Origin: Bacteroidetes bacterium GWF2_38_335
GTDB lineage: Bacteria; Bacteroidota; Bacteroidia; Bacteroidales; GWF2-38-335
Length of the DNA: 64,000 bases
NCBI GenBank assembly: GCA_001769535.1
Contig: MEOH01000002.1
Coordinates: 310,001 to 374,000 of the forward strand
Direction: 5' to 3'
Each line of letters begins with the position of its first letter. Position 1 is the stretch's first letter. A program made the position numbers and the translations under genes. Below are positions 8,871 to 44,242 of this stretch, piece by piece. A model generated the notes under the pieces. It had not been told where the DNA came from. It did no database searches and saw only the letters and a list, made by a program, of their open reading frames with translations.

Positions 8871-11800
8871 TTATTGCTTAACAAGCTTTTCAACCATTAT
8901 TCCTGATTCGGTTCTGACTTCCAGATAATAAATACCCGGTGCAAATTTGCTGACATCAATCATTGTATTTAATTCAACAACATCAGATATATCTTTTATC
9001 ATCAGCAATTGGCCCTGCACATTTCTGACAGACAATACCACATCCCCGGGTTCAGCCAGTCTGAGTGAAGTAAAGAATTCTCCGTTGCCCGGATTTGGAT
9101 ACACAACCAATCCGTCGGAAACTTCGCTCTCCTGAACACCTACAGTAAATCCAACATATATTGAGTCGGTGGCAAAACATCCTTCAGCATCTGTTACCTC
9201 AACAAAATACCAACCAAAATCATTAACAGAGAGTACATCATTTACTCCGGTTACCGTTAAATCACTGTTATGCCAATAAATAATCTCATAACTGTCTATC
9301 AAATACAGGTCGATGGGGAAATCTGCCATAATTACTTCAATCATATCACCATTACCAATTTCAACATCAAGGTTATAGCTTGTAATAAATGATTCAATAA
9401 GATTGTTTTCCAAAATTTCATCATTGTCATATTCAAACCACAAACTAACGGGATAAGATCCGGGAGTTGAAATATCTACAGTTCCGTCAAAAACATACAG
9501 CAGAGAATCATATGGATTAAGTTCAGATTCCAGGATAAGCATTTCCTCAATCACTGCACCGCCATCAAACTGGTATGCCGGATAAAGAGTATCTCCTGCC
9601 GGAATCACTTCCGATCCTGTATTTACAATGTACATTGAAATTTCAGTTGTTACAGCATCGCTGCATATTTCCTCAAGCTCATAGGGCATATCAACAGTTG
9701 CATCGGTTGCATTATTGAGGAACAGTAAGTTAAACTGAAAATCAATATACTGTGGTGATGGCCAGCTTGAAATAATTACAAAATAGGTTCCTGTAGTGAT
9801 GGGAACATCTGTGAAACTAAATCCGGTGGTCGGACTGTTTGCCGAGAACACACAGCTTGTTCCGGGGTCATCAGGACAACCGTCAAAAATAAACAATCCC
9901 GCATAATTATTGGGAGTGGTCAAATCACCTGCAAGTACACCTTCATTTGTAATCTCTATCTGATAAACAATATCATTGCCATTCAGGTAATTGCTTCCGC
10001 ATGGATTGGCTCCAACGTCAGAGCCGTAATTATCACCATATCCTTCAGTTGTTCCGGTAATATTAACCGCAGGCAATTCAAGACCGATCGGATTTTCACA
10101 GTATGCACCCTGGGGAGGTTCAGCAACAGATACAGTTACGGTCCAATCCTGTGAAGTGATTCCATCTTCTGCAGTAACAGTGTAAGTAATTGGTGCGCTG
10201 AAGTCATTGGCAGTTATACCGCTAATCTGGTCAACACCTGAAATTTGTGCAGTGGCACCATAGGATAATGTAAAATCTGCAAATAAGGAGTAAACATCTG
10301 CTTCAAAGTTAACGGTTACAAATACTGAATGGAAGCCATAATCAATAACAGCTTCACTTATCTGCTCAGGAAAAGAATAGGTTAAAATATCGGTTTCATC
10401 ATTAACCGCTGCCTGTGTTGCTGTAACAGTCCATGTTTCCATAGTACCATCTTCGGCATACACTTCATAAACAACAGGTGAGGTGAAATCATTTACTGTA
10501 ACGCCACTTACCTGATCAGTTCCTGAAATCTGAGCCACAGCACAGGGCGACAGAGTGAACGTTGCAACCATATTGGCAAGATCGGCTGAACTGCCCACTG
10601 TAATTGCAATGGTATTTTCTCCCTCGTTTATAACAGCAGGTGCATATAATTCGGGGACAGAATATGACAGAATATTGGCATCAGAACCTTCATTTCCAAA
10701 AACAAGCTCCAAAAAATTTAGTTTACCAACATCGCTGGCCTTGTCATCACAAATGTGTAAAATCCAGGTACCGTTTGGATCGGTGCCATCATTAAAATCA
10801 TCGAAATTCCCCATTGGAATATAACTGCCAATAAACGGAGCTGTACCGGAAGTTATGGGATCACCAACACATCTGTTGAAATCTGTATATTGTGAGCAGG
10901 TTCCGTCAGATATTCCATAATTATCCCCTGAGGATCCATTATCTGAAGTTAATTCAATAGTTATCCCGGATGGTGATTCAAGTGAAATATCAAGATCAGC
11001 GGCATAAGTATGTTTTACGATTAACTTAACATTATTAAGTTGAATATCGGTTCCCAGGCTGGTACCGGGAACATCAATCACATTAACAGGCAGATCATAG
11101 CAGGTATTATTATATATAGGGTAATTGATTTCACAAACCGAAGGATTGCTGAGAGGGGAAACCATTGTTGTAAAATACCATGGTCCGCTCCATTCACTTG
11201 TTTCAGCACCACAATCTGACCGGATATAAAATGCATATTCTGTCGATGAATTCAACCCGGAAAAGGTGTATGGATTTTCAGCAATGTTTTCAATGGTTGG
11301 AACTCCGGTGAAAGACAATGGAGATGGTCCAAATTCAATATCCCATTCAGTTGCATCAAAACCCGTCCATGAAAAAACTGCCTGATCGTATGAAATATAA
11401 TCCTCTGTCAAGCTAATGGGCATCGGGCATGTAGCAGGAGTAGTAACTCCTGTATAAACCCATGTACTCAGATCTGCAATATTACAGGAATCCTGAACAT
11501 AAAAGTCATAGCTTGTTTCGGGTGAAAGACCGGCAATTGTCATGGGATTTGTAACATCCAATAATAATGTTCCGGTTCCCGGAGTAAAACCGCCCGGACC
11601 GTATTCAATGTTCCAATGTTCAGAACTTCCGGTTGTCCATGAAAGTTGCACTTCATCTGCATCATAATAGGTAGCCTGAAAATCGGAGGGCGCAGGACAA
11701 GATACGTTCGAAGTAAAATAAAATGGTCCTTCCCATTCGCTTAAATCGCCCAAAGTACAATCAGACTGCACATAAAATTCATAGCCTGTTACCGGGGTCA

Positions 11801-13496
11801 ATCCAGTTATTGAAAGAGTTGTTGAAGAATGACCACTGACGAGTGTTCCTGTCCCGGGAGTAAAACCTGCCGGTCCCCATTCAATGTTCCATAGAGAGGC
11901 AGGGCCTGTTTCATCCCAGATCAGGTCGGCAGAATAACCAAGAACATTATCGACATTAAGGTTATCCGGACCAGGACAAGTAGGTGGAATGCAATCACCG
12001 GTAAAAGAACAGAAAGGACTGCCGGAAACAGATCCATACCAGAAACTACAGATTTCATCTCCCCATGGGAAATTTATTATAAAACTGCATTCACCAGGAA
12101 ATGAACCTCCATTGAAATATAACTCAATTGCAGCATCATGACACAATTGTATAGAGGATGCAGATTCGGATCCATAATCAAAAGAAACCTGACCAGCGTA
12201 TACACCATTCTGATAAAACGAAACACTGGCTCCATTCCATCCATCGCCCCATGAGTCATACATGATTACTGGATATGAACATGAAACTGAAGGATCACAA
12301 ACCAGAGTATTGAAGCCGTAAGGGCCAGTCCAGTTACTATAATCACCGCTGCCACAATCAGATTGAACATAGAATTCATACCCGGTATTTGATGAAAGTC
12401 CGGTTAATTCATAATAAGTGGCAGCAATTCCGTTTAAGGAAATTCCTGTTCCCTGAGTAAAACCTGTAGGACCATATTCGATATTCCATAAAGTTTCTGA
12501 TCCCTGGCTATTCCAGTCAAGTGTGGCTGAGATGTCAGTCAAATCGGTAACATTCAAATCTATAGGTTGCAAACAACTTGGAGGAGTGTGGAAATAATAA
12601 GGTCCTGTCCAATAACTTACATCCCCTCCACCACAATCAGTCTGAACATAAAAACCATAATCTGTTTCTTCTGTCAGTCCGGTAAGGTTAAAATTAGCAG
12701 ATGTCAGTCCGGTAACCAAAGTGCCTCCGCCCGGCGAGAACCACCAGTTTCCCCATTCAATATTCCATAATGTACCACTGGATGAAGACCAGCTTAAATC
12801 AGCTGATTCAAAAGTAATGTTTTCGGCATTTTGCCAATCCGGTTGAATGCAACTGGGGGGAGTTGTAAAGCAATATGGTCCAGCCCATGAGCTTAAGTCG
12901 CCTGCTCCGCAATCGGTCTGGACATAATAACAATAAGTTGTTTCCTCAGTTAAACCGCTCAGATTATATATAGCAGAAGTTAATCCATTGACCATTGTTC
13001 CGGTTCCCTGTGTAAAACCCGAAACACCCCATTCAATATTCCACATACTTCCTGTAGATGATGGAACCCATGTTAGATCAGCAGAATCAAAATCTATATT
13101 TGATGCACTGAGAGTATTGGGTTTTATACATGAAGGACATGTGGCAGCACCAAGATCTGCTACAGAGGGAGGTGGTCCACCGGAGTAATATATTTGAGCA
13201 CCCTCAGCGTCATAAACGTAATAGCTATTTTCGTATGGCCAGCCACCCGGTGTATAGGAAATTGTGATCAAATCTCCTGTATTAACATTAAAGGTATAAG
13301 TTGTTGGTCCGGAACCATATCCATCAGCATAAGGTATAACTGCCGAACCATTTACATTAACAACGATATATCCGCCATTCCATCCATCGCCATATGAATC
13401 ATAAAGCACAACAGAATAGGTACACTGGGCATTTACCCCCTTAGAAAAGAATAAACTTAAGACAAATAGAACCAGAAACAACTTCTTCATATACAT
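8871..13496 (-). CDS. Giant T9SS-secreted multidomain protein A (DGWNGG / FN3 / P-domain / DUF5018-like)
   Basis: A cell-surface or secreted protein of 1541 residues. Signal peptide: MKKLFLVLFVLSLFFSKGVNAQ (the ATG at 13490 fits as well as the one at 13496). Domains in order: a DSYGDGWNGG domain (about 25-120); three fibronectin III-like repeats, each with a WNIEWG or WNIEYG strand and a YVQ(T/S)DCG motif; a second DSWGDGWNG domain (about 404-500); three more FN3 repeats (to about 784); a proprotein-convertase P-domain (about 789-935, with LESPSGITIEL and NGTWILHICDD); two DUF5018-like units (YTVTAEDG-type ends); a GTYFVIISSWPSP beta-sandwich; a CARDB/Ig-like region; and a T9SS type A sorting domain starting at VVYPNPGNGEFF and ending MVEKLVKQ. 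No protease or glycosidase catalytic motif is visible, so an adhesive or structural role is inferred. It is closely related to its upstream neighbour (13631-17857). Confidence 0.9.
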   Translation of the reverse strand: MYMKKLFLVLFVLSLFFSKGVNAQCTYSVVLYDSYGDGWNGGYIVVNVNGSAVIPYADGYGSGPTTYTFNVNTGDLITISYTPGGWPYENSYYVYDAEGAQIYYSGGPPPSVADLGAATCPSCIKPNTLSASNIDFDSADLTWVPSSTGSMWNIEWGVSGFTQGTGTMVNGLTSAIYNLSGLTEETTYCYYVQTDCGAGDLSSWAGPYCFTTPPSCIQPDWQNAENITFESADLSWSSSSGTLWNIEWGNWWFSPGGGTLVTGLTSANFNLTGLTEETDYGFYVQTDCGGGDVSYWTGPYYFHTPPSCLQPIDLNVTDLTDISATLDWNSQGSETLWNIEYGPTGFTQGTGISLNGIAATYYELTGLSSNTGYEFYVQSDCGSGDYSNWTGPYGFNTLVCDPSVSCSYPVIMYDSWGDGWNGASVSFYQNGVYAGQVSFDYGSESASSIQLCHDAAIELYFNGGSFPGECSFIINFPWGDEICSFWYGSVSGSPFCSFTGDCIPPTCPGPDNLNVDNVLGYSADLIWDETGPASLWNIEWGPAGFTPGTGTLVSGHSSTTLSITGLTPVTGYEFYVQSDCTLGDLSEWEGPFYFTSNVSCPAPSDFQATYYDADEVQLSWTTGSSEHWNIEYGPGGFTPGTGTLLLDVTNPMTIAGLSPETSYDFYVQDSCNIADLSTWVYTGVTTPATCPMPISLTEDYISYDQAVFSWTGFDATEWDIEFGPSPLSFTGVPTIENIAENPYTFSGLNSSTEYAFYIRSDCGAETSEWSGPWYFTTMVSPLSNPSVCEINYPIYNNTCYDLPVNVIDVPGTSLGTDIQLNNVKLIVKHTYAADLDISLESPSGITIELTSDNGSSGDNYGISDGTCSQYTDFNRCVGDPITSGTAPFIGSYIPMGNFDDFNDGTDPNGTWILHICDDKASDVGKLNFLELVFGNEGSDANILSYSVPELYAPAVINEGENTIAITVGSSADLANMVATFTLSPCAVAQISGTDQVSGVTVNDFTSPVVYEVYAEDGTMETWTVTATQAAVNDETDILTYSFPEQISEAVIDYGFHSVFVTVNFEADVYSLFADFTLSYGATAQISGVDQISGITANDFSAPITYTVTAEDGITSQDWTVTVSVAEPPQGAYCENPIGLELPAVNITGTTEGYGDNYGSDVGANPCGSNYLNGNDIVYQIEITNEGVLAGDLTTPNNYAGLFIFDGCPDDPGTSCVFSANSPTTGFSFTDVPITTGTYFVIISSWPSPQYIDFQFNLLFLNNATDATVDMPYELEEICSDAVTTEISMYIVNTGSEVIPAGDTLYPAYQFDGGAVIEEMLILESELNPYDSLLYVFDGTVDISTPGSYPVSLWFEYDNDEILENNLIESFITSYNLDVEIGNGDMIEVIMADFPIDLYLIDSYEIIYWHNSDLTVTGVNDVLSVNDFGWYFVEVTDAEGCFATDSIYVGFTVGVQESEVSDGLVVYPNPGNGEFFTSLRLAEPGDVVLSVRNVQGQLLMIKDISDVVELNTMIDVSKFAPGIYYLEVRTESGIMVEKLVKQ

Positions 13497-13583
13497 TGGT
13501 TTAATAATAAATATTCTTTTTTTAATACAATCAATAAAATTAATAAAAACTTCAATATCTGACCGTTTATCTTATATTTTTTT

Positions 13584-13612
13584 CAAAAAAAAAGGCAGCC
13601 GAAGCTGCCTTT
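13584..13612 (-). terminator. Intrinsic terminator of giant protein B gene
   Basis: On the minus strand AAAGGCAGC, a TTCG tetraloop and GCTGCCTTT are followed by a run of T (AAAAAAAAA on the plus strand at the 5' side). It is 19 bases past the stop of the 13631-17857 gene. Confidence 0.9.
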
Positions 13613-13630
13613 AAATAAATTATTGATAGT

Positions 13631-16600
13631 TTATTGAATAACTATTTTTTCAACAAAGAATGATGAATCGGATCTTACTTCAAGATAGTAAACTCCGTCA
13701 GCAAATGCACCTAAATCAATTTTTTGTTTGAAATCTGATACTTTGCCAGCTTCTTTTTTGAGAATAATCTGACCCTGAGTGTTTCTGATTATCAAACTAA
13801 GGTTTTCATCCTTTTGAAGATTTACATTTACAAAGAATTCTCCTTTGCTTGGATTAGGATAAACGCTCAATGACATATTATCATCAACTTCATTGATATT
13901 GACCACATAGTCTATAAATATTGAGTCTGTGGCAGTACATCCATTAGCATCAGTAACATCTACATAATACCAACCTGATGTATCAGCTGAGTGAATTGGA
14001 GACACACCTGTATCTGTACCATCTGCGTTATACCAGTAGTATGAAGCAAAGCCACCAATTGTAAACAATGTATATGGCAAAGTAGTTGTGGTAATGGTGT
14101 CACCACCTGCAATAGTAACAGAAAGAATTGTATTCTGAACTGTTCCGATCAATGTATCATTGAAAGAAATGTCGTCATTATCGTACTGGAACCAAAGCAT
14201 GAAACTGTACACACCTGTTGCTGATAAATCAACTGTTTCATCAAAAATAAACAAAGTTGAATCTCCGGGCATAAGGTCTGATCCAAGAATCAGTGTATCC
14301 TCAACGATAGTGCCACCGTTAATCTGGTAGTATGTATAAATAGTATCTCCAGTGGGAACATTAATTCCACCGGTATTTCCAATATACATCATAACCTGTT
14401 CAGTACTTGTGGCGCTGCAAACGTAATTTGCTGTATCTGGAAATACTACTGCTAAATCTTGTGGCAGCGGAGTAAAGGCCAGATTAAAAGTAAAGTCAAT
14501 AGACTGAGGTGAAGGCCATGATGAAATGATTACATAATAGGTACCCGGACCAATTGCAACATCAGCGAAGCTAACAGAACTACCTGAATTGGTTGCTGCA
14601 TTAATACAGTTTGTACCTGCAACATTTGGACATCCATCATAAATCATCATACCAATCCATGTATCGGGGCTGGTCATATCACCAACAAGTGTACCTGCTC
14701 CATCAACTGTGAATTCATAAACAATATCATCACCGTTAAGGTAGCTGTCTCCACAAGGATTTCCGCCAAGATCAGATCCGTAATTATCGCCAAAACCATC
14801 AGTTGTTCCGGTTACAGCAACAGCCGGTAAAGTTAAAGGTATAGGGTTATCACAAAAAGCACCCAGAGGAGCGACATCCTGAGTAAGTGTAATTGTCCAG
14901 TCCTGAACAGTTGTTCCGTCTTCAGCGGTAATTGTATAAATCAAAGGATTAGTGAAATCATTTGCAGTAACAGCACTTGTCTGAGCAGTACCAACAATAG
15001 CAGCATCAGCACCATAAGAAAGTGTAAATGTTGCAATCAGTGAAGTAATGTTTGTCATCCAGCCAACATTAACCGCAACTGTGTGGTTTACATTGTCAAT
15101 GGTTGCAGGAAGAGTTTCACCGGGAACAGAATAAGTCAGAATGTCGGTTTCTGTATTTGCCGGAGCAACAGTAACGTTCACAGTCCATGTTTCAGGTGTT
15201 CCGTCTTCAGCATAAACTGTATAAACCACAGGTGCTGAAAAGTCATTTGCTGTAACACCACTTGTTTGGGGAACACCGCCGATATCAACGGTTGCACAGG
15301 TTGAAGTTGTATAGGTTGCAATCAATGAAGTAATGGTTGCACTGAATCCAACAGTTACATCAATAGTATTGGCAACATCATCAATGGTTGGAGCAGCAAG
15401 TTGATCGGGAAGCGAGTATGTAAGGAAATCAGCATCTGAACCTGAGTTTCCAAAAACAAGTTCTGCAAAATGGAAGGATCCCACATCACCGCCAGCATCA
15501 TCACAAACATGAAGTACCCAAACGCCATTGGGGTTAGAGTTATCATTAAAAGTGGCAAAGTCACCCTCAGGAATAAATTGACCGTTGAAAGGAGCAGTTC
15601 CGGATGTAACAGAAGTAGCTGCGCACATTACAAAACTTGTAAACTGTGAACAAGTACCATCGATTACACCATAATCATCACCACCGCCACCACTGTAAAC
15701 TGAAAGATCAGTAGTTACGCCGTTAGGTGATTCAAGGGTAATACTCATATCGCCATCATAAGTATGATCAATGATAAGTTTTACTTCCCTTAACTGAATG
15801 TCGGTTCCCAATTGAGTTCCGGCAACACCGGTAACATTGATGGGGATATCCAGACAAACGTTATCAAGAATAGCTAAACCAACTTCGCAGGGAGTAGGAT
15901 TTGTAAGAGGAGCCATCAGAGTTGTAAAAGTAAAAGGACCAGTCCAAGTACTTGTTGTTCCTCCGCCACAATCGGCCCTTACAAAATAGTCATAGCTTGT
16001 TTCACCGGTTAACCCGGTTAAGGTATAAGGATTAGTTACATCTTCAATAGTCGGTGTACCTGTTGCTGTATATGGAGAAACTCCGTATTCAATATCCCAC
16101 AATGTTGCATCAAAACCATTCCAGTCAAGGATTGCCTGAACATCAGTAATTCCGTAGGCATCAAGAGCAGTTGGTACTGCGCAAAGAGCAGTGGTTGTAA
16201 TACTTACGGGACCTGTCCAAGAACTAACATCGCCCACTCCGCATGAATCCTGAACATAGAATTCATAAGCAGTTTCGGGAGTAAGACCGGTAATGGTGTA
16301 CGGACTAACAACATCAACTATTAAAGTACCGGCACCGGGGATAAATCCTGCAGGGCCATATTCTATATTCCAATGGGCAGCACCACCTGAGGTCCATTCT
16401 AAAGCAACCTCATCTGAATCATAGTAAGTTGATGAGAAAGCAGTTGGCTGGGGGCAGGAAATTCCGGTTGTAAAGCTAACCGGACCGGTATAAGCGGAGG
16501 TATCACCTGGAGTACAATAAGCCCTGACATAAACATCATAATCAGTTTCAGGAACCAGACCTGTAATGGTAAAAGGAATTGTATTAGTATAAACATAAGT

Positions 16601-17857
16601 TCCATCGCCCGGAGTGAAGCCAGGAGCACCATATTCAAGGTACCATTCAGTAGCAGAAGCAAATTCAACCCAATTCACATCAACAGTATGGGCTGTAATA
16701 TTTGAAACGGCAAGATTTGTAGGTTTTGGACAACTGGGAGCTTGTTCAACCAATACATTGTCAATAAAACAATCAGGACCGTAACCAGAATTAAATCTGA
16801 ATCTAATCAAAACAGTAGACCCAAAAGAACTTAAACTTATGGGATCAGAGTTGACAAATGTACCTGGAGTTGTGGTACTTGCACCATCACCAGATTCAAA
16901 AGTCGCACCTATATTATTCCATACCTGAGTCCATGTTGCTCCAAGATCATCAGAAACAAGAACTTCAAGTTGGTCAGTCGGATAAGAAGTATTAAATAAA
17001 TGAGACCAGTCAAAAGAAAACTGAGGAGCAGTCAATGAAGATAAATCAAACAAAGGAGTTGTCATATATGCATAGTTTCCTGAAGTCCAGCTCCAGAAAT
17101 TAGCTCTTGCACATTTTATAGTTCCAACGTATTGCATACATGTTTGTGTACCGCCTGTAAGATCCCAGCATGTTGGAGGCCAGGTATCAAATGTTTCCAA
17201 ATATGGGAAACTAGTAACAGTTTCACAAAGGGTTGCAAAAGAATATGGACCAGCCCAAGAGCTAAAAGTTCCACCGCAGTCACTTTGCACATAAAAATCA
17301 TAATTTGTGGAAGCAGTTAAACCAGTCAGGTTATAAGTAGTGGCTGCAATGCCCGAAACGAGTGTTCCTGAACCGGGGGTGAAACCATCTGGGCCCCATT
17401 CAATATTAAAATTGGGACCAACGCCTACCCAACTAAGGTCAGCAAAAACATTTCCTGCTGCTGCGTTTAATGATGCGGGTGCGGGACAAGCCGGACAGCT
17501 TGCAGTTCCGATTGTTGATGAGGCCAAAGGTGCAACTCCACCTCCATCAGCAAAAATTTGAACACCATCAGAGTCAAATACCCTGTAACCGTTTTCATAA
17601 GCCCAGCTTCCGGCGGTATAGGTTGAAGTAATCGCATCGCCTGTGGAAACTGTAAAGGGAAAATCAAGTGGACCGGAACCGGAAGCCAAAGTAATAGCTG
17701 TCAAAACGGGTGTACCGTTAACAAGAATTGTCAGGTTGCCTCCATTCCATCCATCACCATATGTATCGTACAACTGAACTTTATAGCTGCACTGCGCATT
17801 AATCTGCGTAACAAATGATAATAGAAAAACAATAAATGGGATAAGAATTTTTCTCAT
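13631..17857 (-). CDS. Giant T9SS-secreted multidomain protein B (paralogue of A)
   Basis: A secreted protein of 1408 residues with signal MRKILIPFIVFLLSFVTQINAQ. Order of modules: a DTYGDGWNGG domain (about 23-115); one FN3-like repeat (to about 212); a MAM/choice-of-anchor J-like jelly roll (about 213-372, starting FPYLETFDTWPPTCW and ending CFIDNVLVEQ); three FN3 repeats with WNIEYG-type strands (to about 655); a P-domain (about 659-802, LESPNGVTTDL and VWVLHVCDD); two DUF5018-like units; a GTYYVIISSWPSPQ sandwich; a CARDB/Ig-like region; and a type A sorting domain with LSVYPNPSKGEFFVNV. Architecture from the P-domain onward is the same as in protein A, so the two arose by tandem duplication. 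The main difference is that the jelly roll replaces the second DGWNG domain and some FN3 repeats. No catalytic residues are recognised. It has its own promoter and terminator. Confidence 0.9.
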   Translation of the reverse strand: MRKILIPFIVFLLSFVTQINAQCSYKVQLYDTYGDGWNGGNLTILVNGTPVLTAITLASGSGPLDFPFTVSTGDAITSTYTAGSWAYENGYRVFDSDGVQIFADGGGVAPLASSTIGTASCPACPAPASLNAAAGNVFADLSWVGVGPNFNIEWGPDGFTPGSGTLVSGIAATTYNLTGLTASTNYDFYVQSDCGGTFSSWAGPYSFATLCETVTSFPYLETFDTWPPTCWDLTGGTQTCMQYVGTIKCARANFWSWTSGNYAYMTTPLFDLSSLTAPQFSFDWSHLFNTSYPTDQLEVLVSDDLGATWTQVWNNIGATFESGDGASTTTPGTFVNSDPISLSSFGSTVLIRFRFNSGYGPDCFIDNVLVEQAPSCPKPTNLAVSNITAHTVDVNWVEFASATEWYLEYGAPGFTPGDGTYVYTNTIPFTITGLVPETDYDVYVRAYCTPGDTSAYTGPVSFTTGISCPQPTAFSSTYYDSDEVALEWTSGGAAHWNIEYGPAGFIPGAGTLIVDVVSPYTITGLTPETAYEFYVQDSCGVGDVSSWTGPVSITTTALCAVPTALDAYGITDVQAILDWNGFDATLWDIEYGVSPYTATGTPTIEDVTNPYTLTGLTGETSYDYFVRADCGGGTTSTWTGPFTFTTLMAPLTNPTPCEVGLAILDNVCLDIPINVTGVAGTQLGTDIQLREVKLIIDHTYDGDMSITLESPNGVTTDLSVYSGGGGDDYGVIDGTCSQFTSFVMCAATSVTSGTAPFNGQFIPEGDFATFNDNSNPNGVWVLHVCDDAGGDVGSFHFAELVFGNSGSDADFLTYSLPDQLAAPTIDDVANTIDVTVGFSATITSLIATYTTSTCATVDIGGVPQTSGVTANDFSAPVVYTVYAEDGTPETWTVNVTVAPANTETDILTYSVPGETLPATIDNVNHTVAVNVGWMTNITSLIATFTLSYGADAAIVGTAQTSAVTANDFTNPLIYTITAEDGTTVQDWTITLTQDVAPLGAFCDNPIPLTLPAVAVTGTTDGFGDNYGSDLGGNPCGDSYLNGDDIVYEFTVDGAGTLVGDMTSPDTWIGMMIYDGCPNVAGTNCINAATNSGSSVSFADVAIGPGTYYVIISSWPSPQSIDFTFNLAFTPLPQDLAVVFPDTANYVCSATSTEQVMMYIGNTGGINVPTGDTIYTYYQINGGTIVEDTLILGSDLMPGDSTLFIFDETVDLSATGVYSFMLWFQYDNDDISFNDTLIGTVQNTILSVTIAGGDTITTTTLPYTLFTIGGFASYYWYNADGTDTGVSPIHSADTSGWYYVDVTDANGCTATDSIFIDYVVNINEVDDNMSLSVYPNPSKGEFFVNVNLQKDENLSLIIRNTQGQIILKKEAGKVSDFKQKIDLGAFADGVYYLEVRSDSSFFVEKIVIQ

Positions 17858-17895
17858 ATTAGCTAAATGTTAAATTATTTCTTTATTTTTTTTTA

Positions 17896-17925
17896 CAAAA
17901 TTAAGGCATAAATTCTGTTTTTCAA
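17896..17925 (-). promoter_or_regulatory. Promoter of giant protein B gene
   Basis: On the minus strand TTG (17923-17925), a 19-base spacer and TAATTTTG (17896-17903) match the Bacteroidota -33/-7 consensus exactly. The -7 box lies 38 bases upstream of the ATG. Confidence 0.68.
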
Positions 17926-17978
17926 TGTATCTAACAAAAGAAATATCAGTTTTTTGTCACAGAATATGAACATTGATC

Positions 17979-18012
17979 AAAAAAAAAGCCGTCAAAAAAA
18001 TTGACGGCTTTT
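17979..18012 (-). terminator. Intrinsic terminator of giant protein C gene
   Basis: On the minus strand AAAAGCCGTCAA, a T5 loop and TTGACGGCTTTT are followed by more T. It lies about 20 bases after the stop of the 18032-23917 gene. Confidence 0.9.
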
Positions 18013-18031
18013 AATTTTTTATTGATGAAAA

Positions 18032-23917: not shown

Positions 23918-23963
23918 AAGCTTTCTTTATTAGATTTATTAATTATTTTTCAATTAAGAGGTA

Positions 23964-23971
23964 CAAAATTA
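23964..23971 (-). promoter_or_regulatory. Possible -7 box of giant protein C gene
   Basis: TAATTTTG on the minus strand matches TAnnTTTG. It lies 46 bases upstream of the ATG. The nearest upstream TTG has only a 16-base spacer, so the match is partial. Confidence 0.42.
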
Positions 23972-24167
23972 CTAAATTTGAAACACCCAATTTATGATTT
24001 TGTTCATTTTTAACAGATTTTTATCAATTATTTGTTAATAAACTGATTTATAAAAAAATAAATCTGTACGATAATGAACAGCGCAAAATTTTTTCTTCAT
24101 TTTTTTTAACCTTCTTGCTTTTTAATCATCTTTTTTGTAAATTAACCGATTATTAAAAACTGAACCC

Positions 24168-27100
24168 ATGAAACGCTACTTTCTGATCCTGATTTCGGGA
24201 TTGCTTTTTTACAATCTTTCTTTGGCACAATTGACTGTAACCGGTGGATTAACTGCCACCCAACTGGCAGAGATTCTTGCCGGTCCGGACATTACCGTAT
24301 CCGGAGCAACGCTTACAGGCGATGCAGTTGCCTCAGGATCTTTCAACGGATCACTTTCCAATATCGGATTGTCTTCGGGTGTTATCCTGTCAACAGGAAA
24401 TATTAACCAGTCGCCCGGACCAAACACTGCCACCAACAGTGGATCTGACCTTGGCGAACCCGGAACTGCACAAATGACGGCTCTTGCCGGGGCTGCAACC
24501 GAGGATGCCATCACCCTTCAGTTCAGCTTTGAGGTTCAGTCCGAAATGATCCAGTTTTCCTATGTTTTCGCTTCCGAAGAATACCCCGAATATGCTCCAC
24601 CAAACAGCTCCAGTTATAATGACGTTTTTGCTTTCTATATCAGTGGTCCGGGTATCACTGGTGAGGAAAACATAGCACTGCTTCCTGGTACTTCAGATGT
24701 TGTTTCCATTAACAACATCAACGCCATTACCAACAATATGTATTACATCAGCAACGCCGGCGGCACCACTGTTCAGTTTGATGCTTTTACTACTGAACTT
24801 ATTGCCCGTAAGGACGGACTGATTCCCTGCCAGACATACACCCTGAAACTTGTTATCGCTGATGCAGGTGACGGTGTTTACAATTCTGCAGTTTTTCTTC
24901 AGGAAAACAGTCTTATTCAGGGTGTTGTTGCTGTTCAAACTCAAACAATCAACTCCGACGATATTGCTTTAGAAGGATGTGTGGACGCCAGTTTTGACTT
25001 TTCTCTTGAACAACCTCTTACTTACGATTATACCATCGATTTTACCATAGCTGGATCTGCTACCAACGGAATTGATTACGAATTTATTGATCATTCAATT
25101 ACTATTCCTGCCGGTCAGACTGCTGCTACAATTATTATTCAGGCTATCCAGGACGGTTTTGCCGAAGGCCAGGAGTCTATTTATCTTATCTATAAACCTG
25201 AAATATGCTCTGATTTTGATACCGCTCAACTATTTATTGATGATGCTGTTCCTATTGAATTTAGTATTATTGAAACAAATCTTGATTGCTACGAAGATAA
25301 TTCCGGCGAAATATTTGTTGATGCCACTGGTGGTTTCCCCCCTTATACTTTTCATCTTACTGATGAGTCAAGCACAACTACTTTGTATTCTACCAATCCT
25401 ATGACCGGACTGGCAGCCGGAACCTATTCCGTTCAGGTTTATGATATTTATGGCTGTAAAGCCGAAGCTCTTGTTATTGGTGGCTCATTCGATGCAGGTG
25501 TAACATTTTTGCCCGATGGCAGTGGTGTTACCTACACCAGTTCAATTGTTATATCAGGTTTTGATCCGGGACAAACACTGGATGACCTGAGCATGCTTCA
25601 GCAAATTTGTGCCAATATGGAACATTCCTATTTGGGCGATCTGCAAATTAGAATCACCTCTCCCACCGGTCAATCCTGCATTTTAAAACAATTTTCAGGC
25701 GGCGGTTCAACCGACCTTGGCGAACCTGTTGCTACCGGTCCGGTCGATGGCGGCGCCGGTTCAGGTATTGTTGATCCGGGTAACGGCTTTGATTATTGCT
25801 TTAACGCTGATCCCGATTATGGTACCATGGTAGCAGAATCATACGTTTACCAACATACTTATGTAGATAACGTAGGCCACAATCTTACTGATTATTATTT
25901 GCCTGCAGGTTCTTATATTCCTTACCAACCTCTGAGCACTTTGCTTGGCTCATTGCTCAACGGAACATGGACTCTGTCTGTAACAGACCAGTTCGCTCTC
26001 GATAATGGTTATATTTTTAACTGGAATATCAGTCTGATTTCCGATTTACCCGATACAGTTGCTGTTTTGACACAACCCGACGGAATGGATGTAAATGGTT
26101 TTGTTACTCAGGCCCAGTGCGGCGGCAGTGACGGCGCAATTAATATTACAGTAAACGGTGATGTTCCGCCTTTTACCTATTTATGGAGCAACAGTGCCAC
26201 AACTGAAGATATCAGCGGAATCCCATCCGGCAGTTACAGTGTAACTGTTACTGATAATGCCGATTGCCATCAGACCGAATCATTTATTCTGAACAACATC
26301 AGCAGTATTAATACTTCAAAAACAATTACTCACATTACTTGTAATGGTGGAAATAATGGTGCCATTACCCTTACAACTTCGGGGGGCACTGCTCCTTACA
26401 CTTACGCATGGAGCAGCGGTCAAACTACTCAGTCTGTTTCCGGACTTGTAGCCGGAACCTACAATCTTACCATTACTGATAATACCGGCTGTATATATCT
26501 GGAATCTTTTACCATAAATCAAAATCCTCCGATATCTGTTGCTACAGTTTCTGTCCTGAATGAAATCTGCAGTTCTGACAACGGGTTAATCGACATTAAC
26601 CCCTCAGGCGGCACAGGATCATATGCATATGCATGGAGCAATGGCGCTACCACACAGGATATAATTGACATACCTTATGGAACATATTCTGTTACTGTAA
26701 CTGATGGAAACGGCTGCTTCACAACAAGAACCTACTCAATCATTAACGATGTAAGCAACTGCTCTGCTTTTTGCTTCCTGGATATCAGCAGCTCAAGCAT
26801 TACCAATGATCTATGCGGATCGGGAACAGGTGCTATTGACATTACGCTCGAGGATGTTACCTTCCCGTATGTGATAAACTGGAGCAATGGTGCCACTACC
26901 GAAGATATTTCAAATCTTGTTTTTGGTAATTATACTGTGACAATTAACGACGCAAATAACTGCCAGTTGATTGAAACAATAACTGTTCCAAACAATACCG
27001 GCACACTTGACATTACCAGTTCAAATGTAACCAACGAAACCTGTGGCAATGATCTGGGTGCCATTGATATCACCCTTTCAGGTGGTTCTTTGCCATACAC

Positions 27101-30100
27101 TTACTCATGGAGTAACAGTGCTACTTCACAGGATATTGCTGGTCTGGCTGCCGGAAATTACACAATAAATATTACTGATGGCAGTAATTGCGTGTTGTCT
27201 GAAACATTTACCGTAGCCAATAACACCGGAACAATGAATGTGGCTTATGATACAGATAACGATATTTGTGATTCGGGGCAGGGATCAATTACCCAGACTG
27301 TCACCGGAGCATTTGGCTCAGTAAGTTATCACTGGAGTACTGGTCCGACAACCGCCTCATTGGTTAATCTGCATGCAGGCACCTATATCTGTACAATTAC
27401 AGATGCAGCAGGTTGCAACACCATTGAAACCTACTACATAACAAACTCCCCGGGCACAATGCATCTTAGCTCAACAGTTGTTACCAACGAAACCTGTAAT
27501 AATAACAGTGGTGCAATTAATCTGACCATTGCAGGTGGCGGCGGCGGATACACATACAACTGGTCAACCGGGGCAACTACAGAAGATGTTTCAGGATTGA
27601 ATGAAGGTATTTATCATTGTACTATTACAGATATTAACTCCTGTTTCGTTCATACCGGTTATATCTATGTATTTAATGATGCCGGTAATCTTGCAGTGGA
27701 AAATCAATTTATAACTGATGAAATCTGTAACAACCAGCATGGTGCTGCCAATGTTAATATAACAGGCGGAACTACTCCGTATGTTTATCACTGGAGCAAT
27801 GGTTCTACTGCTCAGGATTTACTCAATGTGCATGATGGTAATTATACTCTTACCGTAACAGATGCAAATGGATGTATAACCGAACATATGGTTGAAATTT
27901 TGAATACTCCAGGCGATCTGGAAATTCTTGCTGCCCTTGTTACAAATGAAATATGCGGAAACAGTCAGGGTGATATTAATATTACTCTTGATGGCGGAAC
28001 CACTCCTTATAGTTATATCTGGAGCTCAGGACAAACTTCTCAGGATCTTATTAATGTTGCTGAAGGAACTTATTCATGCACCATTTCAGATGTTAATGGT
28101 TGTGTCGTAAATTATACCGGTACCATCGAAAACAACGCCAGTACACTTGCAACTTCGACAGTTATTACAAGTGAAATATGCTCTAACAGTACCGGATCTA
28201 TTGATCTTACTCTGACAGGTGGAGCAAGTCCGTACACATATTTATGGAGTTCAGGTCAAACAACACAAGATATCTCGGGGTTAAGCGGAGGAGTTTATTC
28301 TTGTGAAATAACTGATAATTCAGGTTGCCACATCAACACAGGCATCATAAATATTTATAACAATCCGGGTACCTTGAATGCTACTGCCGTTTCGACCGAT
28401 GAAACATGTTCAAACGATGCCGGAAGTATCAATGTTACAACCACCGGGGGTGCAACGCCTTACTCATACATCTGGACAGGCGGCGCAACTACCGAAGATT
28501 TATCTGGATTAAGTGCCGGCACCTATTATTGCACAATTACAGACATCAACGGATGTGAAGTAATAATTAGTAAAATCATCACCAATACACCTGGTACTCT
28601 TGCCATTTCAAATGCTCTGGTCAGCAATGAAACATGTAATGACAATCTTGGAGCCATTGACCTGACAATTTCAGGAGGAACTTCGCCTTATACTTATTTA
28701 TGGAGCAATGCACAAACAACACAGGACATGGTTTCGCTCAACGAAGGAAATTATACCTGCACTGTATCTGACGCAAATGGCTGTCAGGTTATTTCAAGCG
28801 TATACACTGTTGCAAATAACCCCGGATCACTTGCACTGACTGACATCATCATAACTGATGAGAACTGCTCCAATGGACTTGGAAGGGTTAATATTACGAT
28901 TTCAGGCGGCGTGACTCCGATTACTTACCTATGGAGCAACAGTGCCATAACCCAGGATATTATCGGTCTTCATTCGGGCAATTACGCTTGTACTGTTACC
29001 GATGCCACCGGATGTAAATTATTCATTAATGCAACCGTTGGCAATAATTCGGGAACACTGAATGTCAACAATTCTGTTGTTACCAATGAGGCATGTAATA
29101 ATAATGCCGGAGCCATTGATATTTCTGTTCAGGGAGGAACCATTCCTTATACATACTTATGGAATTATGGACAAACCACTCAGGATATTTCAGGATTATC
29201 TGAAGGTAATTTTGAAGTTCAGATTACTGATGATAACGGATGCATCATTACTTTTGTAACTGAAATCCTTAATCTTGGCAGTGATCTTGATATTACAAGT
29301 GTCAGTATTTCTGATGAAATGTGCGGAAATAATGCCGGGGCAATAAATATTACTACCGTTGGCGGAAATACACCATACAGCTACATTTGGAGCAATGGAA
29401 ACATTTTTGAAGATGTTTCGGGTGTTGCAGCAGGCAATTACAATGTCACCATTACCGATAATAATGGCTGTACCGTGACTGATGGTTTTACCATTAATGA
29501 AAATAACGGTACTCTAAACCTTATTTCAGTAAATGCTGTTGATGAAAGCTGCGGCGAAGTAAATGGCTCAATTGACGTCACTTTCTCAGGTGGTTTTGCA
29601 CCGGTAACTTACTTATGGAATACAGGTGCTGTAACACAAGATCTGACAGGTATTCCGGCCGGCAATTATATTATTACCATCACTGATACTTACGGATGTA
29701 ATATTAATGCGTCCGAAACCATTGTTAACTTATCAGGTGGATTTGAAATCAGCAATTCTGTTGCTGTAAATGAAAGTTGTGCCGATGAAGCGGGTTCGAT
29801 TGACCTTACTATAACAGGCGGACTTCCTCCCTATTCATACACATGGAATACTGGGGCGGTTACCGAAGATTTATCAGGACTTTCAGCCGGAACATACAAT
29901 TGTACTGTAACGGATGCCAATTTATGCAGTATTTTATTTGAAGAAACAATTATCAATCAGACAACCGGAATTGCCATTTCAAATTCGGTGACTCAGAATG
30001 AGACCTGTGGCAACAACGTTGGCTTTATTGATCAAACAATTTCAGGCGGAACAACTCCGTATTCATATAACTGGAGCAGCGGTCAGGTTACTCAGGATCT

Positions 30101-32714
30101 TGTCGGGTTATCTGAAGGCACCTATACCTGTTCCGTTTCAGATAACACAGGATGTGTAGTTATTGGGACTTATGTGGTTGAAAATGATGGCGGTGATTTT
30201 ACTGTCAGTTCAGTTATCCAGTCCGAAACCTGTACAAACTCACAGGGTCTCGTTAATATTACTGTTAGCGGTGGAATGCCTCCTTACACTTATTTATGGA
30301 GCAGCGGGCAAATGACGCAGGACATTACAAATGTCACCACAGGCAACTACACTGTTACCATAATGGATGATGTTGGATGTGATTACATTGCCGAATTTGA
30401 AGTTGGTTATCTTGATAATCCAAATCTTGGATTTGCTTCTGTAAATGATACCAATGAGTCATGCGGTAATGGAAACGGAGTGGTTTCTGTTAGTCCGGCC
30501 TACCCGGGCACTTATATTTATACTCTGAATGGAAGTTCACCTTCATCTATGACTCCATATCCAAACTGGACAGGATTGTCAGCAGGAACGTATGTTGCAT
30601 CCATCAGTGATGCCAATGGATGTATTGTGGAATCTGATATCGAATTGATTAACACAGCACCATATTCCACCTCCCTTTCACATCTATTTGATGATAATTG
30701 CGGAAACGGCGAAGGAGCTATTGATATTTCAGTTTCTCCCGCAGGTACTTATATGTTTGAATGGAGTAATGGTGAAACTTCCGAAGATATTTACAATCTG
30801 AATGGAGGTACCTATTCCTGTACAATTTCAGATGAAACAGGATGCCTCAGCTACCTGACCCAGAATATTGAAAATACGACCACCGTTGCCGGTTCCGGAA
30901 CTGCAACAGAAGAATATTGCGGAGATGCAACCGGATCAATTGACCTCACAATATCCAGCGGAACACCTCCATATACTTATACCTGGAACAACGGTGAAAC
31001 CACTGAAGATATCGGATCACTTTCTGCCGGAAATTATTCTGTCACAGCAACTGACAATACCGGATGCTCAGAAATATTCGATTTTACAGTTGCAAATAAT
31101 ACCGGAACACTTTCTGTTACAGGAACTGTTACAAATGACAACTGTTATAATGCAACAGGAGCAGTTAATCTTAACATTACAGGAGGTTCAGGGAACTATG
31201 CTTTCGGATGGAGCAATGGTGCATCAACCGAAGATATTTCAGGTCTCATCGAGGGTATTTATGAAGTAGTGGTTTTTGATCTTGACCTCAATTGCAGAGT
31301 AACTCAGCAGTATGAAGTAATCAATAACGCTCCTTTTGATGTTACTTTTACTCAGGTTACAAATATTGCCTGCGGTGAATTTAATTCAGGAGCCATCGAA
31401 ATATTCCTGTATCCATCTACCGGTTCATACACATACATCTGGAATAACGGTGCAACAACACTCAATCAAAGCGGATTGTCTGCAGGAAATTATTTTGTAA
31501 CAATTTCCAATTCAGTAGGTTGCGATGAAATACTTTCCTTTGAAGTATTATCAGAATCAAATATTGCTGCATCCTCGGTTATTACAAACGAAAACTGTAG
31601 TGACGGAACAGGCACTGTTAACCTTAGCGTAACAGGTGGAATTGCTCCATATAGTTATTCATGGAGTAACGGACAAACTACCCAGGACATCTCTTCATTG
31701 CACGCAGACACATACACCTGCACTGTAACCGATAGCGAAGGATGTATTGCCATTGAAGAAGCAATTATTACAAATGGTACTTCACTTACATCATCAACGG
31801 TTATAACCGACGAAAGCTGTGGTGACAATCAGGGTTCAATTGATCTGACAATAACCGGAGGAACAGCTCCATACGAATATGAATGGAGCAACGGGTTTAC
31901 TTCGCAAAACATTGAATCACTGGCTGAAGGTACTTATACAGTAACCATCACCGATCAAAACAATTGCGTTTTGGTTGTGGATGCCTTTGTTGATAACAAT
32001 ACCGGCACACTTGCCGTAACCGGAATTGTTGATGACGATTATTGCTACAATGCCGACGGAAGCATTACCCTTGTAATTACAGGTGGTTCGGGAGATTATG
32101 CTTTTGACTGGAGCAATGGATCTACAAACCAAAATGTGACTGGTCTGACCGAAGGAATATACACTGTAATGGTATTCGACATCGGACTAAATTGCAGACT
32201 GACAGAGGAATTCACAGTAGGAAACACCGGAAGCTTCTCTATCTCCTCCAATTTCATTACCGATGCAAGCTGCTCAACCTGTGATGACGGTGCAATAAAT
32301 ATAACCTTATCAGGTGGCGGCGGACCATTTAATTATGATTGGAGCAATGGAGGCGGAACTCAGGATATCTCAGATTTGCTTCCGGGAACTTATACCGTCA
32401 CCATTGAAAATGGTTCGGGTTGTATCATTGTTGAAACCTTTGAGGTTGGATTCCTTACAATTATTTCCGGATTTGAACAAACAAGTTCTATTACCGTTTA
32501 TCCAAACCCATCGGAAGGTCTGTTCAATATAGAGATGCCAAAAACCGCACGCTCAAATATGAAATACTCTGTAGTTGATATTTTGGGTAAGGAGGTTGTA
32601 AGCGGAACCATTTCAAATTCTGTTTTTCAATTGGATTTATCAGGAAACAAAGCCGGATTTTACCAATTGATTTTTGAAAACGGCATGACCGTCAAACTGG
32701 TCATTACACAATAA
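24168..32714 (+). CDS. Giant SprB-repeat adhesin-like protein, T9SS type A
   Basis: The largest gene here, 2848 residues. Signal MKRYFLILISGLLFYNLSLAQ. Residues 22-262 are a choice-of-anchor L domain (LTATQLAEILAG, FVFASEEYPEY-like FSYVFASEEYPEYAP, VFAFYISGPG). Residues 263-365 are Calx-beta-like. One SprB-type unit (about 366-440) precedes a P-domain (about 442-629, IRITSPTGQS and LNGTWTLSVTD). Then come 28 more SprB-type units of about 76 residues (PY(T/S)YxWSxGxTTQD, L-x-A-G-x-Y, TDxxGC), giving 29 in total. Most units carry one Cys after NE(T/I) and one in the final GC. A type A sorting domain closes the protein (ITVYPNPSEGLFNI). SprB repeats are known from the mobile gliding adhesin SprB of Flavobacterium. 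Surface adhesion is inferred; gliding is not shown. It is divergent from the three minus-strand giants. Confidence 0.93.
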   Translation: MKRYFLILISGLLFYNLSLAQLTVTGGLTATQLAEILAGPDITVSGATLTGDAVASGSFNGSLSNIGLSSGVILSTGNINQSPGPNTATNSGSDLGEPGTAQMTALAGAATEDAITLQFSFEVQSEMIQFSYVFASEEYPEYAPPNSSSYNDVFAFYISGPGITGEENIALLPGTSDVVSINNINAITNNMYYISNAGGTTVQFDAFTTELIARKDGLIPCQTYTLKLVIADAGDGVYNSAVFLQENSLIQGVVAVQTQTINSDDIALEGCVDASFDFSLEQPLTYDYTIDFTIAGSATNGIDYEFIDHSITIPAGQTAATIIIQAIQDGFAEGQESIYLIYKPEICSDFDTAQLFIDDAVPIEFSIIETNLDCYEDNSGEIFVDATGGFPPYTFHLTDESSTTTLYSTNPMTGLAAGTYSVQVYDIYGCKAEALVIGGSFDAGVTFLPDGSGVTYTSSIVISGFDPGQTLDDLSMLQQICANMEHSYLGDLQIRITSPTGQSCILKQFSGGGSTDLGEPVATGPVDGGAGSGIVDPGNGFDYCFNADPDYGTMVAESYVYQHTYVDNVGHNLTDYYLPAGSYIPYQPLSTLLGSLLNGTWTLSVTDQFALDNGYIFNWNISLISDLPDTVAVLTQPDGMDVNGFVTQAQCGGSDGAINITVNGDVPPFTYLWSNSATTEDISGIPSGSYSVTVTDNADCHQTESFILNNISSINTSKTITHITCNGGNNGAITLTTSGGTAPYTYAWSSGQTTQSVSGLVAGTYNLTITDNTGCIYLESFTINQNPPISVATVSVLNEICSSDNGLIDINPSGGTGSYAYAWSNGATTQDIIDIPYGTYSVTVTDGNGCFTTRTYSIINDVSNCSAFCFLDISSSSITNDLCGSGTGAIDITLEDVTFPYVINWSNGATTEDISNLVFGNYTVTINDANNCQLIETITVPNNTGTLDITSSNVTNETCGNDLGAIDITLSGGSLPYTYSWSNSATSQDIAGLAAGNYTINITDGSNCVLSETFTVANNTGTMNVAYDTDNDICDSGQGSITQTVTGAFGSVSYHWSTGPTTASLVNLHAGTYICTITDAAGCNTIETYYITNSPGTMHLSSTVVTNETCNNNSGAINLTIAGGGGGYTYNWSTGATTEDVSGLNEGIYHCTITDINSCFVHTGYIYVFNDAGNLAVENQFITDEICNNQHGAANVNITGGTTPYVYHWSNGSTAQDLLNVHDGNYTLTVTDANGCITEHMVEILNTPGDLEILAALVTNEICGNSQGDINITLDGGTTPYSYIWSSGQTSQDLINVAEGTYSCTISDVNGCVVNYTGTIENNASTLATSTVITSEICSNSTGSIDLTLTGGASPYTYLWSSGQTTQDISGLSGGVYSCEITDNSGCHINTGIINIYNNPGTLNATAVSTDETCSNDAGSINVTTTGGATPYSYIWTGGATTEDLSGLSAGTYYCTITDINGCEVIISKIITNTPGTLAISNALVSNETCNDNLGAIDLTISGGTSPYTYLWSNAQTTQDMVSLNEGNYTCTVSDANGCQVISSVYTVANNPGSLALTDIIITDENCSNGLGRVNITISGGVTPITYLWSNSAITQDIIGLHSGNYACTVTDATGCKLFINATVGNNSGTLNVNNSVVTNEACNNNAGAIDISVQGGTIPYTYLWNYGQTTQDISGLSEGNFEVQITDDNGCIITFVTEILNLGSDLDITSVSISDEMCGNNAGAINITTVGGNTPYSYIWSNGNIFEDVSGVAAGNYNVTITDNNGCTVTDGFTINENNGTLNLISVNAVDESCGEVNGSIDVTFSGGFAPVTYLWNTGAVTQDLTGIPAGNYIITITDTYGCNINASETIVNLSGGFEISNSVAVNESCADEAGSIDLTITGGLPPYSYTWNTGAVTEDLSGLSAGTYNCTVTDANLCSILFEETIINQTTGIAISNSVTQNETCGNNVGFIDQTISGGTTPYSYNWSSGQVTQDLVGLSEGTYTCSVSDNTGCVVIGTYVVENDGGDFTVSSVIQSETCTNSQGLVNITVSGGMPPYTYLWSSGQMTQDITNVTTGNYTVTIMDDVGCDYIAEFEVGYLDNPNLGFASVNDTNESCGNGNGVVSVSPAYPGTYIYTLNGSSPSSMTPYPNWTGLSAGTYVASISDANGCIVESDIELINTAPYSTSLSHLFDDNCGNGEGAIDISVSPAGTYMFEWSNGETSEDIYNLNGGTYSCTISDETGCLSYLTQNIENTTTVAGSGTATEEYCGDATGSIDLTISSGTPPYTYTWNNGETTEDIGSLSAGNYSVTATDNTGCSEIFDFTVANNTGTLSVTGTVTNDNCYNATGAVNLNITGGSGNYAFGWSNGASTEDISGLIEGIYEVVVFDLDLNCRVTQQYEVINNAPFDVTFTQVTNIACGEFNSGAIEIFLYPSTGSYTYIWNNGATTLNQSGLSAGNYFVTISNSVGCDEILSFEVLSESNIAASSVITNENCSDGTGTVNLSVTGGIAPYSYSWSNGQTTQDISSLHADTYTCTVTDSEGCIAIEEAIITNGTSLTSSTVITDESCGDNQGSIDLTITGGTAPYEYEWSNGFTSQNIESLAEGTYTVTITDQNNCVLVVDAFVDNNTGTLAVTGIVDDDYCYNADGSITLVITGGSGDYAFDWSNGSTNQNVTGLTEGIYTVMVFDIGLNCRLTEEFTVGNTGSFSISSNFITDASCSTCDDGAINITLSGGGGPFNYDWSNGGGTQDISDLLPGTYTVTIENGSGCIIVETFEVGFLTIISGFEQTSSITVYPNPSEGLFNIEMPKTARSNMKYSVVDILGKEVVSGTISNSVFQLDLSGNKAGFYQLIFENGMTVKLVITQ
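25491..26055 (+). other. P-domain inserted between SprB repeat 1 and 2
   Basis: The segment codes for a proprotein-convertase P-domain-like beta sandwich (GDLQIRITSPTGQSCIL and GTWTLSVTDQF) embedded in the SprB array. No subtilisin-type catalytic domain accompanies it. Confidence 0.75.
26060..32465 (+). repeat. Array of 28 SprB-type repeats (~76 residues each)
   Basis: In-frame units of roughly 230 bases, recognisable by the TGGAGC/TGGAAT codons of the WS/WN motif and by the TGC/TGT codons near each end. DNA divergence between units is substantial, unlike the near-identical repeats of the 18032-23917 gene. Confidence 0.88.
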
Positions 32715-32721
32715 TAAATAT

Positions 32722-32754
32722 AAAATGCCTGTGAAATTCACAGGCATTTTTTTT
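32722..32754 (+). terminator. Intrinsic terminator of the SprB-repeat gene
   Basis: AAAATGCCTGTGA, a three-base loop and TCACAGGCATTTT are followed by TTTT. The stem starts 8 bases after the stop codon. Confidence 0.9.
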
Positions 32755-42568: not shown

Positions 42569-42575
42569 TTCAACC

Positions 42576-42606
42576 CAAAATTAATACAAAATTAAAAAAG
42601 AATCAA
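42576..42606 (-). promoter_or_regulatory. Promoter-like sequence overlapping the upstream terminator
   Basis: On the minus strand a TTG at 42604-42606, inside the terminator stem, lies 20 bases from TAATTTTG at 42576-42583. A second TAATTTTG sits at 42587-42594. The proximal box would give a very short leader before the ATG at 42568. Confidence 0.4.
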
Positions 42607-42627
42607 GTAATCACTTGATTCTTTTTT
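42594..42627 (-). terminator. Intrinsic terminator of copy 2 gene
   Basis: AAAAAAGAATCAAGT, a four-base loop and ACTTGATTCTTTTTT form a perfect 15-bp stem 30 bases beyond the stop codon of the 42658-44241 gene. Confidence 0.9.
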
Positions 42628-42657
42628 ATTTAACACATACTTTGAATATAATCTTAA

Positions 42658-44241: not shown

Positions 44242-44242
44242 T

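Follow-up and report, generated by a model that had tools for sequence, protein, structure and literature searches.

Do four neighbouring genes for giant secreted proteins form one functional unit at the cell surface, or did they come to lie together as separately expressed T9SS cargo? The question is raised by a stretch of 64,000 nucleotides (the window), which corresponds to bases 310001-374000 of contig C2 in a 5.27-Mb, 29-contig genome. An earlier note described four consecutive giant genes at 8871-32714, encoding proteins of 1541, 1408, 1961 and 2848 residues, and suggested that they may constitute one functional surface layer or adhesin set. We analysed the locus for transcription signals, domain content, relatives in other genomes and the genome-wide distribution of similar genes.

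Gene order and transcription signals

The list of open reading frames agrees with the run of four giant genes: P0001 (8871-13496, 1541 aa), P0002 (13631-17857, 1408 aa) and P0003 (18032-23917, 1961 aa) on the minus strand, and P0004 (24168-32714, 2848 aa), which carries the SprB repeats, on the opposite, plus strand. This difference in strand is absent from the earlier note. P0003 and P0004 are divergent and separated by a 250-bp gap, and the list contains no ORF of at least 100 aa in the intergenic gaps of the four genes.

Terminators were called by a consensus scan of the sequence. A terminator-like hairpin was found after each of the four stop codons, in line with the proposal that every gene has its own terminator. 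A 17-pair hairpin is located between the convergent genes P0007 and P0001 (8817-8854); the scan lists it on the plus strand only, and its symmetry could serve both genes. The remaining three are located 3' of P0002 (13591-13612, minus strand), 3' of P0003 (17984-18012, minus strand) and 3' of P0004, ahead of the adjacent channel gene (32722-32750, plus strand). The hairpin totals of the two scanned regions are close to expectation (9 with 12.4 expected, and 16 with 11.0 expected), hence the weight of this observation rests on the placement and length of the hairpins at the four stops (9-17 pairs) and not on their number.

A Bacteroidota-type promoter-like site, TTG-N19-TAATTTTG, occurs upstream of P0002 at 17896-17925 (minus strand), its -7 box 46 bp away from the gene. 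Upstream of P0003, at a distance of 54 bp, there is a TAATTTTG -7-like box alone (23964-23971, minus strand). The background for this pattern on both strands of the window is 13 full matches and 64 lone boxes, and the same scan revealed no site for P0001 and none near P0004. An operon would occupy one strand without internal terminators; the ORFs and consensus scan place the four genes on both strands with terminator-like hairpins between them. Operon structure and shared regulation were therefore rejected on the basis of gene orientation and hairpins. Separate regulation, previously offered as a possibility, is supported at the sequence level by the hairpin following each gene, the divergent P0003/P0004 pair and the promoter-like sites upstream of P0002 and P0003. 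The four genes look separately switched and of differing history, rather than components of one machine.

Export signals and domain make-up

All four tails exceed the cut-offs for a type A sorting domain with both PF18962 (38.4, 50.2, 55.5 and 72 bits for P0001 to P0004, cut-off 27) and TIGR04183 (47.2, 37.9, 49.2 and 53.6, cut-off 23), confirming the initial assignment. Inspection of the translations by eye shows that each N terminus consists of a hydrophobic start followed by Q (AQC, AQC, SQT and AQL, respectively); a passage in PMC5837995 states that cleavage by Bacteroidota signal peptidase I mostly exposes an N-terminal Q. The genome encodes both SprA (2692.8 bits) and PorU (1345.8 bits), each above cut-off. 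Passages in PMC10202324 and PMC12618676 describe type A tails as read by PorV and cut by PorU, with the cleaved proteins either lipopolysaccharide-anchored or released, and type B T9SS proteins as requiring a PorP/SprF partner. We infer that each of the four proteins exits via Sec and then crosses the outer membrane through SprA, and that the type A tail would be picked up by PorV and removed by PorU, leaving the protein cell-surface-bound or released. The fn3, SprB and other long repeats would form extracellular stalks, presenting DGWNG, cleaved-adhesin and choice-of-anchor L domains to polysaccharide or other cells in a putative binding role.

The proteins resemble RemA and AmyB, type A cargo of F. 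johnsoniae, in the type A sorting domain and in the presence of SprA and PorU in this genome. As points of difference, the block proteins are 1408-2848 aa long and have no catalytic family above cut-off. The Pfam search placed no catalytic family above cut-off in any of the four, which bears out their description as non-catalytic. Pur_ac_phosph_N, which does exceed its cut-off in P0001 and P0002, is the N-terminal, fn3-like part of purple acid phosphatase. Elsewhere in the window, three more consecutive minus-strand proteins with type A-like tails are encoded at 40982-44863; the second tail scores above the NCBIfam and below the Pfam cut-off, and the third below the Pfam cut-off.

According to Pfam, P0001 and P0002 have fn3, P_proprotein and DUF5018-type modules in common, and P0003 also contains fn3. 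P0001 consists of a signal-peptide-like start, a DSYGDGWNG domain (13140-13430), fn3 repeats, a second domain of this type (11997-12305), further fn3 repeats, P_proprotein, two DUF5018-type modules (residues 933-1126, 10119-10700), a C-terminal linker and the type A sorting domain (residues 1465-1541, 8874-9104, located with Pfam and NCBIfam), all on the minus strand. Both DSYGDGWNG-type domains were delimited by alignment of copies, and the DUF5018-type modules by Pfam. P0002 has a single DSYGDGWNG domain (17480-17794, minus strand) followed by fn3 repeats, P_proprotein, two DUF5018-type modules (residues 802-995, 14873-15454, minus strand, Pfam), linker and type A tail.

P0003 contains fn3, a cleaved adhesin domain, a DUF5018-type pair, a lamin-tail-like (LTD-like) stretch below cut-off, approximately five repeats opening like TWSATSFTE..NDGSIS (identified by eye), a C-terminal linker and the type A tail. 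The cleaved adhesin domain (22748-23230, minus strand) scores 40 bits with PF07675 (cut-off 21.4) when the excised piece is scanned, and residues 279-384 match the Lys-gingipain chain 4itc_A (E 1.1e-6). P0003 thus resembles Lys-gingipain in its cleaved adhesin domain, but lacks any peptidase match at E 0.1. The piece of P0002 that corresponds to this region of P0003 has no family match at E 1. The DUF5018-type pair of P0003 (residues 584-778, 21584-22168, minus strand) appears as a tandem in the DNA with 75% matches; it falls below the Pfam cut-offs (17.7 of 28.1 bits) and is 51% identical to the P0002 pair over 205 aa. The C-terminal region of P0003, of about 280 aa, is 33-36% identical to those of P0001 and P0002. 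Hence, the claim that three of the proteins share modules and the fourth is a SprB-repeat protein holds: fn3, DUF5018-type modules and the C-terminal region recur across P0001-P0003, and P0004 contains 27 SprB stretches.

The DSYGDGWNG domain, approximately 100 aa in length, opens both P0001 and P0002. In an alignment of 13 copies, the invariant residues include D10, G13, W16, N17 and E67. At E 0.1, no family of Pfam or NCBIfam matches more than one of these copies: one copy matches the beta-galactosidase galactose-binding domain PF21467 (8.2e-4), and other single copies show weak matches to unrelated families. A profile of the domain found nothing convincing among solved structures (best E 0.17). 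The structural model of the P0002 copy (mean pLDDT 94.9) gave no Foldseek match at 0.001, and the top two, at E 0.03-0.04, are 2xhh and vCBM60 (2xfd). The title of 2xhh places this structure in work on calcium-dependent carbohydrate-binding modules. VIA-align gave Z 8.3 over 87 residues for vCBM60 and Z 7.8 over 93 residues for 2xhh, with an unrelated structure next at Z 7.0. As models without a clear match usually top out at Z 7 to 8, these values are close to the no-match range and the CBM60 resemblance is suggestive only. The model thus weakly resembles calcium-dependent sugar-binding modules, with which it has 17% identity and no sequence match. In a literature search we found no paper on the GDGWNG motif and none on CBM60/CBM36 calcium-dependent modules. 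With no consistent family match, the domain is a candidate for a new sugar-binding family. A more far-reaching proposal, that P0001-P0003 are a tandem array diversified by duplication and module exchange in which DGWNG represents an undescribed CBM60-related calcium-dependent glycan-binding family, appears doubtful; if true, DGWNG modules would serve to vary the surface binding of the cell.

Relatives of the block and the origin of the cluster

To place the four genes among their relatives we used a sample of 60 genomes, the window genome included, with almost one genome per family. A single congeneric genome was available, the MAG G001 with 190 contigs. The tandem genes P0001 and P0002 encode paralogues with 51% identity over their last 770 aa; P0014 (1073 aa, C2:408260-411481), about 80 kb from P0002, adds a third member of the family. 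A first contig scan with P0002 as sole query returned no relative. At 1e-70, P0002 matches two of the 60 genomes, namely the window genome and G001, and BM523, a Marinilabiliales MAG reached by another route, shows that relatives exist outside the sample. The only P0001/P0002 relative in G001 at 1e-70 is P0013 (1930 aa, contig C187), flanked by housekeeping genes that we named by eye as phosphate dikinase-like and carboxylase-like.

P0003 has matches at 1e-30 in 8 of the 31 genomes searched, the window genome included, and most of those outside the genus cover common modules only. Its best relative in G001 is a 1521-aa protein on contig C147 (62-66% over the C-terminal half), with a second, shorter relative on C28. 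The gene order on C147 is a P0008 relative (63%), a 152-aa ORF, a P0009 relative (50%) and then the P0003 relative, which is the order of the window once P0004 and the channel gene are removed. No counterpart of P0001, P0002, P0004 or the channel is present among or beside these genes. The nearer contig end is 7.7 kb away from P0013 and 9.1 kb away from the C147 protein, hence the two proteins are at least 16.8 kb apart however the contigs join. The C147 protein adjoins a PorP/SprF gene, and beside it is a giant with SprB repeats whose end looks type B-like by eye (L103:17535-20000 and L104 for this locus). The giant is broken off at the contig end and about 33% identical to P0004 along the SprB repeats. 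The G001 relative of P0007 (76%) is found on C184, next to two further proteins whose ends look T9SS-like by eye.

No close relative of P0004 was found in G001, where the best match reaches 37%. The best match of all (51% in the N-terminal part, 44% across 2008 residues) occurs in another family (G047). When residues 1-651 of P0004 were used as query, 24 of the 60 genomes, again counting that of the window, gave matches at 1e-20, largely to single domains.

In a tree built on the C-terminal region, P0003 falls with two G001 relatives (100/98), apart from P0001 and P0002, which form the other group with P0013 and P0014 (89/96). The inner order of the latter group is not separated, and P0001 and P0002 as mutual closest relatives were therefore set aside. 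Recent transfer of the DUF5018-type module from P0002 to P0003 was likewise set aside, given that 14 of the 24 inner branches in a 27-module tree are open.

A second tandem is seen in BM523 (PKSZ01000618.1, L125), where one P0001/P0002-type protein is represented by its C-terminal part and, after a gap of 187 bp, a second member with a DTFGDGWNG domain starts on the same strand. It resembles the window in having consecutive P0001/P0002-type genes on one strand, but the contig is only 4872 bp long and no P0003- or P0004-type gene is visible beside them. On another BM523 contig (L123), one protein joins modules like those of P0002 (47%, 650 aa) and P0003 (60%, 189 aa). The BM523 contigs favour repeated tandem duplication together with module mixing. 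Arrays of the P0001/P0002 type recur, as BM523 shows, and so might be selected.

Downstream of P0004 is a gene for a Castor/Pollux-type channel protein (P0006, 32832-34727), with a patchy distribution of 3 of 60 genomes at 1e-70, including the window genome. We rejected the channel as a linked partner of P0004: nothing in G001 passes 1e-70, and the 74% channel relative in G028 adjoins an unrelated T9SS giant, P0011, which has no match to P0004 at 1e-10. G028 also encodes a 2809-aa protein with a T9SS-like end (L058:10425-18854) and a near-identical repeat of several hundred residues, which may be a true duplication or an assembly effect.

Of 386 candidate type A tails in the genome, 150 were scored, and the total of 150 is hence a lower bound. 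The P0001 tail is absent from the scored set, and the block counts three scored tails. With a 5-kb gap, there are six clusters of at least three tails (random mean 2.3 and maximum 8, from 2000 trials), and 58 tails belong to clusters of at least two (mean 37.2, maximum 60). The corresponding values are 10 clusters (5.0, maximum 14) and 75 tails (54.6, maximum 80) at 8 kb, and 11 clusters (6.8, maximum 15) and 80 tails (64.7, maximum 98) at 10 kb. Clustering is thus above the random mean and never above the random maximum. Spans of less than 24 kb with at least four of the 150 scored tails occur on seven contigs, with eight tails in one span on C11, and the C2 span of this kind is a separate cluster at 191-211 kb. 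Random labelling of 15 giants (14 counted plus P0001, contig breaks ignored) among 151 tails gives a probability of 0.008 for four ORFs of more than 1400 aa in a row, which suggests some regional cause beyond chance. Tail clusters are common in this genome, and the run of giants is not fully chance.

Taken together, we consider the block to be a small lineage-specific array of separately transcribed T9SS cargo genes and not a co-transcribed functional unit, with a probability of roughly 70%. What the sequences show directly is the tails, domains and separate hairpins, the genes for SprA and PorU, the paralogy, and a synteny that is broken in one congener. P0001 and P0002 would be the tandem paralogues of the array, and P0003 an older resident having fn3, DUF5018-type and C-terminal modules in common with them. 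P0004 would be an unrelated SprB-repeat protein on the opposite strand beside the array. The products are best read as surface-anchored or released binding proteins.

The proposal of a single co-displayed adhesin set or surface layer, kept together by selection, can draw on the adjacency of the genes, their common export tail, the modules common to three of them, the improbable run of giants and the BM523 tandem. We nevertheless regard it as unlikely, as the genes are on divergent strands and each is followed by a terminator-like hairpin, the block is split up in G001, where the relatives of P0001/P0002 and of P0003 are on different contigs and a close P0004 relative was not found, and the best P0004 relative occurs in G047, where no P0002 relative passed 1e-70.

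That the genes cluster by pure chance, in a genome that abounds in T9SS cargo, is improbable. The abundance of type A tails, the similar-sized clusters elsewhere and the only modest excess of clustering at the 10-kb gap would suit this explanation. It is opposed by the clustered tails at the 5-kb gap, the improbable run of four giants, the P0001/P0002 tandem paralogy with its similar tandem in BM523, and the modules in common with P0003; the grouping is hence not pure chance. The earlier note had foreseen a chance cluster if related genomes carried the genes at separate loci with unrelated expression. Of these two conditions, separate location is indeed observed in one congener.

The block is a further example of a common, known gene type; in the literature we found no paper on SprB-repeat T9SS gene clusters, nor on choice-of-anchor L domains together with T9SS. 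For an uncultured Bacteroidota lineage with this many type A tails, the array exemplifies how local clusters of giant exoproteins are built, and it cautions that giant T9SS exoprotein genes lying side by side should not be taken for a functional unit.

A SprB-repeat protein with a type A tail

P0004 comprises a choice-of-anchor L domain (24261-24914, plus strand; NF038133, 231 bits), a Calx-beta-like stretch below cut-off, P_proprotein stretches, the 27 SprB repeats and the type A sorting domain (32496-32705, plus strand, 72 bits). The model of the choice-of-anchor L domain (mean pLDDT 79.7) has weak structural matches to CBM61, a hyaluronan-binding module, MAM and Eph (best E 2.2e-3), and phmmer found no solved structure matching P0004 at 0.01. 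P0004 resembles SprB of F. johnsoniae in its long SprB-repeat array, but differs in its type A tail, its N-terminal choice-of-anchor L domain and the lack of a SprF gene on its contig. No CHU_C match was detected in P0004 at E 0.1, nor a type B (CHU_C/TIGR04131) tail, and the genome has 22 PorP/SprF hits, all outside contig C2, leaving P0004 with no linked gene of this kind. Type A tails are common on SprB-repeat ORFs: among the 39 such ORFs derived from the 150 scored repeats of the genome, at least 13 have one, P0004 included.

A passage in PMC12618676 reports that F. johnsoniae SprB with its own tail swapped for a type A tail was secreted, but surface-immobile or released; the same source also ties RemA, a type A protein, to F. 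johnsoniae gliding. It is highly improbable that this is a gliding adhesin locus in which P0004 plays the part of SprB: the 27 SprB repeats and 2848-aa length would fit, but we rejected this reading on the type A, not type B, tail and the lack of SprF on the contig, and the swapped SprB of that passage was not sent to the gliding track, with RemA as a caveat. P0004 is thus probably not a gliding adhesin; with a type A tail on SprB repeats and no SprF on C2, it is best interpreted as a stalk protein that stays static or is released. It would represent a natural counterpart of the published tail swap, with immobility or release as the predicted outcome, and the genome has at least 13 such proteins in all.

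Three further features of the window were observed. The product of 52027-56142 is a 1371-aa T9SS protein of type B (CHU_C) that contains Laminin_G_3 and PKD domains; it has no adjoining PorP/SprF gene, and its contig holds none of the 22 PorP/SprF hits. An OmpA/PD40 protein at 57576-59663 resembles the PorE and CHU_0125 families, with scores below both cut-offs. Finally, at 49885-50080 about 22 copies of a 9-bp unit encode an NGN-rich run within a 449-aa protein.
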